From Sulfurospirillum halorespirans DSM 13726 (GTDB lineage Bacteria; Campylobacterota; Campylobacteria; Campylobacterales; Sulfurospirillaceae), in the NCBI RefSeq assembly GCF_001723605.1, contig NZ_CP017111.1, positions 2,852,001 through 2,916,000 of the forward strand: a stretch of 64,000 nt of DNA, in the 5' to 3' direction. Shown in pieces: positions 5,402-38,107 of this stretch. The position numbers were made by a program, and so were the translations under genes. The notes beneath the pieces are model-generated. The model was not told the DNA's origin, searched no databases, and saw only the letters and a list, made by a program, of their open reading frames with translations. Every line of letters begins with the position of its first letter. Positions within the stretch are counted from its first letter, which is position 1.

Positions 5402-5455
5402 AGTCCGTAAAGCGCGTTGTAAAATGTAAAACAGCTTACGAAACAACCTTCTATC

Positions 5456-5522
5456 GACACGGCTGAGGCACGATGGGAGCCCCGAAACGCTCCGCTTATT
5501 CGTCCCATCGGCTCAAAGTGTC
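5456..5522 (+). other. GC-rich stem-loop between hcyD and sulfite reductase
   Basis: The 196-bp gap 5402-5597 has no gene. GACAC (5456-5460) pairs with GTGTC (5518-5522) and CGATGGGA (5471-5478) with TCCCATCG (5503-5510), enclosing a GC-rich loop. Outside this, GTAAAGCGCG (5407-5416) can pair with CGCGTTTTAC (5541-5550). The gap ends with a TTTACATGTAAC motif and the ribosome site of the next gene. It could be an attenuator, processing site or small RNA. Confidence 0.5.
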
Positions 5523-5597
5523 TCTTTCAGGTCATTTCTTCGCGTTTTACTCTGAACTGCTTTACAGTTTTACATGTAACGATAAGGAGTTACGATT

Positions 5598-7880: not shown

Positions 7881-9145
7881 GTACCTTAGGCATCGCACTC
7901 ACGCCAAAACGCACACTTTTGATTGGGGCGGGCAAAGTCGCCGCACAAAAAGCGCGCGTACTGGACAGTCTTGATTTTGCGTACGAAATCGTCGCAGCAT
8001 CAAAGCTCGATGCCTATTTTGAATCCAAAATCTTTACATGTAAAGCGTTTGAGGATGCTGATGCAGAGGGCTTTGAAGTGATTATTGACGCGACCGGCAA
8101 TGAGCAGGTGACCAAGCGTTTGGTTGCCCTAAAACCGCTTCATCATTTTTGGCTCAATGTTGTCGACGTCCCTGAACTCTGCGATTTTTACTTTAGTGCG
8201 CTGACACGCCGTGGAGACATTCAAGTTGCCGTGAGTAGTGGAGGCAGTTCGCCAACCTTGGCGCAAGTCATTCGTAATAAGATCGAAAAAATTTTACCGC
8301 GTGATCTGACCTCACTCATCGACAGACTGAAAAACGAGCGTAAAAAACCCGATCGTGATTTGGATAAACTCAAAGAGATTGCCAAAGCAGGTGTGGGAAA
8401 AGTGTTTCTTATCGGCTGTGGAACAGGCTATGTCGGAAACCTCACACTCGATGCACTAAATGCGTTTGAACTGCTCGATGTAGCATTAGTGGATGCGTTG
8501 GTCTCGCAGGAGATTCGCGCCCTGATTCCGCTTACATGTAAAGTCGTCGATGTGAGCAAAAAGAAGGGGTTCCACTCCAAAAGTCAAGATGAAATTAACG
8601 CACTTTTGGTCGAATACGCGAAGCAAGGGTTGGTTGTTGGACGCCTAAAAGGAGGCGATCCGCTTCTGTTTGGGCGTTTGGGTGAAGAGAAGCAGGTTTT
8701 GGCTCAGCACGGCATCTCCTTTGAGGTCATTAATGGCATTACGTCAGCCCTAAGATCATGTACCGTTTCAGGCATTGTGCCAACGATTCGTGACATTTCC
8801 AAAGGGGTGACCATAGTCTCGGCACACCTTCGAGAAACGCTTTTCAACGATGATTGGGTGGGCATTTTAAAACAACCGTTACACACGGTAATCGTTTTGA
8901 TGGCGCACAGTTTTGCGAAAAAAATCGAAGATGCCATTGCAAAACAAGAGATCGACCCCAACCTTCCTGCCGCGTTTGTCTCGAAGATTGACCTGCCCGA
9001 TCAGATTACCATAGTGGGAACTGTGGGAAAATTGGATAAAATGGCAACACTATGTGCCACACCCGCGGTTCTCATCATTGGTGAGTGTGTCGCAAAAGAG
9101 AACATTTTACCAGCCGAAAATAGCGGCAAAATCATTTACATGTAA
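7877..9145 (+). CDS. cysG: CysG-like sirohaem synthase (dehydrogenase/ferrochelatase plus uroporphyrinogen methyltransferase)
   Basis: A two-domain protein of 422 residues that should make sirohaem for the sulfite reductase upstream. The N-terminal part (1-150) is a precorrin-2 dehydrogenase type: LLIGAGKVAAQKARVL binds NAD, and a CysG-like SSGGSSPTLAQVIRNKIE follows. The C-terminal part (170-400) is a tetrapyrrole methylase with GRLKGGDPLLFGRLGEE. Its first SAM loop reads GCGTGY where GAGPGD is usual, a divergent form. Two palindromes lie in frame as Thr-Cys-Lys, and a third (9135-9146) supplies the end Tyr-Met-stop. Confidence 0.9.
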   Translation: MSTLGIALTPKRTLLIGAGKVAAQKARVLDSLDFAYEIVAASKLDAYFESKIFTCKAFEDADAEGFEVIIDATGNEQVTKRLVALKPLHHFWLNVVDVPELCDFYFSALTRRGDIQVAVSSGGSSPTLAQVIRNKIEKILPRDLTSLIDRLKNERKKPDRDLDKLKEIAKAGVGKVFLIGCGTGYVGNLTLDALNAFELLDVALVDALVSQEIRALIPLTCKVVDVSKKKGFHSKSQDEINALLVEYAKQGLVVGRLKGGDPLLFGRLGEEKQVLAQHGISFEVINGITSALRSCTVSGIVPTIRDISKGVTIVSAHLRETLFNDDWVGILKQPLHTVIVLMAHSFAKKIEDAIAKQEIDPNLPAAFVSKIDLPDQITIVGTVGKLDKMATLCATPAVLIIGECVAKENILPAENSGKIIYM

Positions 9146-9168
9146 AGGCTAATCAGCTGTCTAAAAAA

Positions 9169-9249
9169 AGCACCAACGGTGCGCGGGCTCGCTGCCGAAG
9201 CGAACTCAGCGTTAGCGTAGCGTGAGAAGCTTTGCTTTGAGCGCGTGTC
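9169..9249 (+). repeat. Intergenic repeat, copy 1 (about 80 bp)
   Basis: This copy aligns without gaps to the reverse strand of 37973-38054. The first 20 bases match at 19 positions (AGCACCAACGGTGCGCGGGC here), and a second block around GAAGCTTTGCTTT is also shared. It contains a GCACC/GGTGC hairpin at 9170-9181. It lies in the 155-bp gap between cysG and metY, inside an imperfect inverted repeat (AATCAGCT at 9151-9158, AGCTGATT at 9271-9278), so the gap RNA could fold as one long stem. Confidence 0.65.
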
Positions 9250-9300
9250 AAAACATAGGATTTTTTCGATAGCTGATTTACATTCAAAGAAGGATATTTT

Positions 9301-10521: not shown

Positions 10522-10602
10522 TAAAACGTTTTGAATGGATTTAACCCTTTACCTTTACATGTAAAATTCACTCAAACACGATCATTTTAAAGTAACGAAA
10601 GT

Positions 10603-10728: not shown

Positions 10729-10886
10729 TGAATGCTAAACGTTTAACTCCCTTGCCTTGTTCGCTTTACATGTAAAGTAACGTTAAAAGTTTAGCCCTAA
10801 GCTCTAGGTGCCCATTTTGGGCTAACACGAAACGTAAAGACTTTTACTCTTTAGACGTCGAACCCTAAATAAAAGAGAATACATCT

Positions 10887-37945: not shown

Positions 37946-37972
37946 AATTTAATAGAGTTCTTGCAGACCTTT

Positions 37973-38054
37973 AAACACGTCATTAAAGCAAAGCTTCAAA
38001 GACTACGTTAACACTGGGTTTTCCTCGACGGAATGCCCGCGCACCTTTGGTGCT
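37973..38054 (-). repeat. Intergenic repeat, copy 2 (inverted)
   Basis: The reverse strand of this stretch aligns base for base to 9169-9249. Strongest blocks are 38035-38054 (19 of 20 identical) and AAAGCAAAGCTTC at 37985-37997. A GCACC/GGTGC hairpin is conserved. It lies in the 190-bp gap between arrB and the PstS-like gene; nothing else is seen there except an imperfect CTTCTTGCA/TGCGAGAAG stem near 38060-38087. Confidence 0.65.
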
Positions 38055-38107
38055 TTTACTTCTTGCAAAATGAATTCTGCGAGAAGTCTAATATAGGAGT
38101 TGCACTT

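Follow-up and report, generated by a model that had tools for sequence, protein, structure and literature searches.

A dispersed intergenic repeat of Sulfurospirillum with a single-strand-constrained hairpin core and IS5-type ends

The window considered here is a 64,000-nucleotide stretch of the Sulfurospirillum halorespirans DSM 13726 genome (contig NZ_CP017111.1, positions 2,852,001 to 2,916,000), and contains two copies of a repeat, termed F1, that lie 28.8 kb apart in opposite orientation and share 78% identity across a 73-base alignment (E 2e-10 with the whole genome searched). Searching the window with a covariance model of the family (R1), built from 30 sequences that include both of these copies, recovered copy one at 9164–9259 on the forward strand (94.6 bits, E 6.8e-19; a 96-position model span with its core at approximately 9167–9251) and copy two, whose model span is 37964–38059 on the reverse strand (103.7 bits, E 6.9e-21), and nothing beyond these at E < 0.3. 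A first-pass annotation had described two copies about 29 kb apart, in opposite orientation and with shared sequence blocks, and the alignment agrees with it, both of the named blocks being present.

Copy one contains hairpin 1 (GCACC-AAC-GGTGC, 9170–9182; helix 1, with 93.3% of cells paired across aligned copies) and hairpin 2 (GGGC[stem]GCCGA[stem]ACTC, 9185–9207; helix 2, 88.3% paired, with two-sided changes at 5 of its 8 pairs), followed by a mini-hairpin, GC-GTTA-GC (9209–9216; helix 3), that is 100% paired and displays C-G/U-A covariation. A CGTAG tag, recognised by its sequence pattern at 9216–9220, forms the foot of hairpin 3 (H3, 9220–9244), which the covariance model places around a TTT loop and which has two mismatched pairs in this copy. 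Copy two is, judged by its ends and length, a complete 136-bp MITE form at 37954–38089 on the reverse strand (AGACTTCTCGCAGAA...GCAAGAACTCT), with the ends AGACTTCT...AACTCT, and is flanked by a 3-bp target duplication, ATT, at 38090–38092 on the left and 37951–37953 on the right, in element orientation. These IS-type ends are absent from copy one, which is instead bordered by a left outer arm, AATCAGCTGTCTA (9151–9163), and a right outer arm, TCGATAGCTGATT (9266–9278), that pair with each other. Pairing of 9151–9158 (AATCAGCT) with 9271–9278 (AGCTGATT) had been noted previously and reaches further, to AATCAGCTGTCTA against AATCAGCTATCGA, but comparison of the locus between genomes assigns these arms, and with them the long inverted repeat around copy one, to a separate local hairpin of F5 type, outside F1. 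The right arm also flanks F5 in G018.

Searching with the copy-one locus hit 23 of the 24 genomes. In G014, G024, G027 and G029 the match was due solely to F1 copies elsewhere, and these four were excluded; a second match in G023, with no right flank, was dropped, leaving 19 genomes. At this site five genomes carry F1 (G000, which is the present genome, G017, G023, G015 and G016), five carry F5, three carry F5 inverted, and six have no element, five of them cleanly. F5 is a hairpin element unrelated to F1, and the right arm that borders F1 in G017 matches the one bordering F5 in G018 (GGGTTTTTTCGATAGCTGATTTACATTC), so that the outer arms belong to F5, which F1 either replaced or entered. All 13 hits to F5 in the searched loci fall within this sulphur-assimilation region, and the window has a copy at 5441–5538 on the reverse strand, a long structured hairpin upstream of a sulphite/nitrite reductase gene. 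Separately, a TTTACATGTAAA palindrome (at most one mismatch) occurs at 29 places in the window, against 0.38 expected, in both coding and intergenic DNA (for example 9135–9146, 10554–10565 and 10765–10776), and may be a motif for DNA uptake, methylation or a regulator.

The repeat is not confined to the two window copies: a blastn search with 9140–9290 against the whole genome (one contig of 3,029,840 bases) gave 41 places, and the covariance model found 71 at E ≤ 1. Forty-six of the latter reach at least 66 bits and are regarded here as strong copies. Ten of the weaker hits were inspected: one was a lone hairpin 3, one a truncated array unit, and eight belonged to a second repeat family, F2, which has the 3' half in common with F1, a different 5' half, and mostly no IS-type ends. 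F1 is present in all 24 genomes of the genus, at 6–76 matches each, and in 6 of 20 genomes from other genera of the host's family (30 of 44 in the family as a whole). Scanning named genomes with a sequence pattern yielded 83 loci, almost all of them from Sulfurospirillum or Campylobacterales, together with an Arcobacter and a Sulfurovum MAG, and no match to F1 was found in plasmid, phage and viral collections. With a simple ORF caller, all of the 46 strong copies fall between genes, except one that is overlapped by a short called frame, and at 119 independent sites across the genus no overlap of a copy with a called frame exceeds 40 bases. The interval at 992–1923 kb of the host contig, 31% of the genome, holds just 2 of the 46 strong copies (a post hoc observation, binomial 1e-5). 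Searches of the open-licence literature listed no description of F1 or of Sulfurospirillum repeats; according to a passage of PMC7755780, several strains of Sulfurospirillum have an additional 106 bp upstream of cbiB, which might be a related element.

The F1 core of approximately 85 bp consists of three hairpins and the mini-hairpin. Across 30 aligned copies, 94.2% of the 780 cells of a 26-pair structure are paired, and two-sided changes occur at 12 pairs and in 58 cells, as against 18.1 cells in shuffled alignments (0 of 500 shuffles as high) and 2–6 cells in a control with the partners slid. Both further copies and covariation, two of the signs by which the first-pass annotation proposed its repeat family be judged, are thus in evidence. 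RNAalifold favours an alternative in which UGCGY pairs with RCGUA in place of hairpin 1, so the 5' part may switch between folds, and the folding of single copies shows a moderate gain over shuffled sequence (z of −0.95 for the window copy and −2.0 to −4.5 for seven others, plus strand). Hairpin 3 is the clearest part of the fold, with CGTAG, a 10-bp stem of freely varying sequence, a short loop and CGTG. Written as CGTAG-N7-AGCNNNGCT-N7-CGTG, this module of about 29 nt gives 66 pattern hits in the genome versus 6 in the reversed control, and its roughly 60 copies are intergenic and lie nearly always within F1 or F2; in the copies from the Arcobacter and the Sulfurovum MAG the H3 sequence differs throughout, with pairing, by eye, still possible.

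The stems of H3 also indicate which form of the nucleic acid is constrained. Among 119 distinct H3 hairpins of F1 and F2 there are 1148 Watson–Crick cells, 110 G.T, 12 A.C and 39 others, and removing the commonest wobble pair leaves 69 G.T against 12 A.C; the cells are non-independent, and the excess of G.T is seen at most pairs, pair 8 excepted (3 to 5). Since a cruciform, or a protein reading duplex DNA, would be blind to strand, this bias points to a single strand as the constrained form, and the F1 core is constrained as a single strand, whether ssDNA or RNA, and not as a cruciform.

Such a constraint raises the possibility of a structured RNA family, with the host selecting for an sRNA or UTR element and recombination spreading it, with which the G.U-tolerant covariation on one strand and the conserved loops accord. 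The same is true of retention in place, which exceeds that of the coding flanks: in 56 orthologous pairs the mean identity is 93.9% for the core, 89.5% for the flanks, and 84.0 and 87.0% for the adjacent 40 bp, and in the eight most diverged pairs 91.3% for the core, 79.0% for the flanks and 72.0% for adjacent DNA, the core value being biased upward as both members had to match the core pattern. Unrelated copies average 83.6% identity. H3 stems lie outside that pattern, and of 46 one-sided changes in 51 orthologous pairs, 36 leave the base pair intact, as do 13 two-sided changes, with the pair broken by 15. Orientation to genes is less accommodating. In the present genome 29 of the 46 copies are co-oriented with the upstream gene, but among the 119 independent sites 62 are co-oriented with the upstream gene and 62 with the downstream gene, a random arrangement that speaks against an mRNA element. 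An Rfam covariance-model search of six loci (E ≤ 2) gave nothing for F1, F2, F3 or F5, and only a tRNA and a spurious microRNA match on an F3-type element; copy number ranges widely between genomes (6–76), and presence or absence differs between close species. A structured RNA is judged an unlikely explanation. The annotation's proposal of a mobile or RNA-coding family that no gene explains can be retained in its first part, a dispersed, non-genic repeat whose mobility is supported by many copies, differences in presence between close species and 3-bp duplications; its RNA-coding part, in spite of the one-stranded structure, fits poorly with the random orientation and the Rfam result.

The ends carried by many copies provide a second line of evidence. 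Of 180 distinct copies, a set that includes some mutual orthologues and whose counts hold at the search stringency used, 84 have a left IS-type end, 106 a right, 67 both and 57 neither, and the modal end-to-end length of the MITE form is 136 bp. Target duplications, a check suggested in the first-pass annotation, were found not only as ATT at copy two, but as identical 3-bp flanks in 42 of the 67 two-ended copies (mean 19.0 and maximum 29 in 10,000 shuffles), mostly AAT or ATT, and also AAA, AGT, AAG, ATA and TAT; the match extends over 4 bp in only 1 of the 67. The terminal repeats of F1 (AGASTTCTTGCA...) correspond to IS ends (AGACTTCTTKCATAACC), and using the F1 ends as a query located four 907-bp elements in the genome (L299–L302), whose own ends are AGACTTCTTTCATAACC and which have AAT on both sides in four of four cases. 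The element encodes a split transposase in two overlapping reading frames, 153 and 154 aa long, which match HTH_Tnp_4 and DDE_Tnp_4; the best NCBIfam model is that of the IS5 family, each half falling under the model cut-off. Among six loci examined, a relative in G003 has the ends AGACTTCTTGCATAACC and unequal 3-bp flanks (ACT and AAT), and no such ends were seen in relatives in G015, G016, G017, G022 and G033 (62–63% identity). The transposase was found in 6 of the 24 Sulfurospirillum genomes and in 7 of the 44 that represent the family. Other elements of 48 to 267 bp share these ends and differ inside, and among these MITE-like elements, those of 166 and 266/267 bp (L284, L285, L268 and L289) have a common GAGTCATAGC..GCTATGGCGATG hairpin.

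Like IS5-family MITEs, F1 can occur as a short non-autonomous element with IS terminal repeats, a 3-bp duplication and, in the present genome, an autonomous partner. Were it a plain IS5-derived MITE, with incidental hairpins, and copies without terminal repeats that have simply decayed, its ends, modal length and duplications would be expected, as would further elements that share the ends but enclose a different interior. The interior of F1, however, is structurally constrained and unrelated to the IS, with no alignment to the interior of the 907-bp element beyond short chance words, and many copies lack ends altogether. In these end-less copies the core is conserved, and compensatory changes, the one-strand wobble bias and the preservation of the pair in most one-sided H3 changes between orthologues are all difficult to reconcile with incidental hairpins. 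F2, moreover, has the same 3' half mostly without these ends, and F1 forms head-to-tail arrays, with a period mostly of 91–102 bp, that are also without them. A plain IS5-derived MITE is viewed as quite improbable.

Comparison with the close relative G017 illustrates how sites differ between genomes. Twenty-four of the 46 copies were placed among 48 G017 loci, with flanks mostly 91–98% identical, and of these sites 14 have an insert of the same size, 8 are apparently empty and 2 are different. The empty G017 sites corresponding to 319072 and 1961599 are clean and associated with a 3-bp duplication; several of the other present/absent differences lack the marks of a clean insertion and may reflect deletion in G017. 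Such differences at copies without IS ends were not taken as insertions: at 462068 another genome (L146) has the element together with extra flank, so G017 probably lost it. At 498991 and 2959643 of the host contig F1 occupies the intergenic site at which G017 has F2, and at 2711002 G017 has a third type; at 2959643 the F2 5' hairpin still precedes F1. A more speculative reading, held to be improbable, is that the intergenic hairpins of Sulfurospirillum form an exchangeable set, in which cores (F1, F2, F5 and others) swap or invert at one site between shared arms, the F1 core being a single-strand-selected replicator and the IS5 ends one of several vehicles.

The 3' half of F1 bears comparison with REP sequences. 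Passages of PMC3733652 describe GTAG repeats with stems of 6–13 bp, loops often of 2–3 bp, complementary stem changes and frequent GT pairs, and a passage of PMC8266576 describes recognition of GTAG hairpins as ssDNA. F1 shares with the GTAG-REP/TnpA-REP (RAYT) systems treated there the tag at the hairpin foot, the perfect or near-perfect stem, the 3-nt loop, the complementary stem changes, the intergenic location and the arrays. Such REPs are units of 20–50 nt in high copy, and the roughly 29-nt module here is mostly embedded in F1 or F2. F1 differs in that H3 forms part of a conserved 85-bp core that has further hairpins upstream, in having tens of copies and not hundreds, and in the absence of any copy beside a Y1 gene, where flanking copies would be expected of a RAYT. 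The arrays, too, are head-to-tail, with a usual spacing of 91–102 bp, unlike BIMEs, in which paired REPs are in inverse orientation; REP dimers are usually head-head or tail-tail according to the part of PMC3733652 that deals with them. Structured intergenic repeats of 100–150 bp and modular make-up, of the ERIC, Correia and BOX types, occur in other taxa, and F1 resembles these by description.

The genome has a single Y1_Tnp gene, encoding a REP-type transposase (L031:1462–2220), next to a gene that, from its start, we take to be gyrA. A single orthologue, at least 69% identical, is conserved in 22 of the 24 Sulfurospirillum genomes, and the protein scores 77.4 bits against the NCBIfam model REP_Tyr_transpos (cut-off 80). 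Were the F1 core a GTAG-tagged REP moved as ssDNA by this enzyme, with the IS5 ends added later, the CGTAG tag beneath a paired stem of variable sequence, the one-strand constraint, the lack of gene-orientation bias and the arrays would be explained. Several observations weaken the Y1 protein as the obvious mobiliser: the R1 model found no F1 near 30 Y1 loci, the gene is flanked by inverted repeats of its own (GGGGTCAGGGCTAAACTTTTAAC; ends GGGGTCAGG...), and in the g4 genomes Y1 orthologues are present with F1 in 0 of 6. Its motifs, NHYH and YIENNP, resemble those of subclass 2.1, which is listed with “no” for hairpins in the relevant part of PMC6006769. A link between Y1 and F1 is put forward as a hypothesis, and movement of the core by this enzyme is considered possible, though doubtful.

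We class F1 neither as an established REP nor as an ordinary MITE: it carries both the tag of the former and the ends of the latter, but no REPs flank the transposase gene and its interior does not derive from the IS. The interpretation thought probable, with some reservation, is that of a composite mobile intergenic repeat, combining a REP-like core, structured as a single strand, with IS5-type MITE ends. The 3' half common to F1 and F2 (mini-hairpin, CGTAG tag, a stem that varies yet is nearly always paired, and CGTG) resembles a GTAG-tagged REP module, and many copies additionally possess outer palindromes bearing IS5-family ends and 3-bp target duplications. These ends and duplications suggest that the 136-bp form was moved in trans as a MITE by an IS5 transposase or a close relative, the IS5 transposase being the putative mover, and the one-strand constraint may reflect recognition of ssDNA by a REP-type Y1 enzyme, a role as RNA appearing less likely. 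Copies without ends may be eroded MITEs, or may have arisen as arrays grew and copies recombined into other hairpin elements. Set against the composite interpretation are the numbers of two-ended and end-less copies (67 and 57 of 180), and the restriction of the IS to 6 of the 24 Sulfurospirillum genomes, which implies that the mover is missing from most hosts today.

As a composite, F1 would unite two kinds of repeat usually treated apart, the REP-like palindromes structured as single strands, and the MITEs of a DDE insertion sequence. With two complete genomes of approximately 95% identity, in which copies are present, absent or swapped, it renders the spread of REP-like palindromes directly testable, and it may account for many of the small intergenic indels that distinguish Sulfurospirillum strains.
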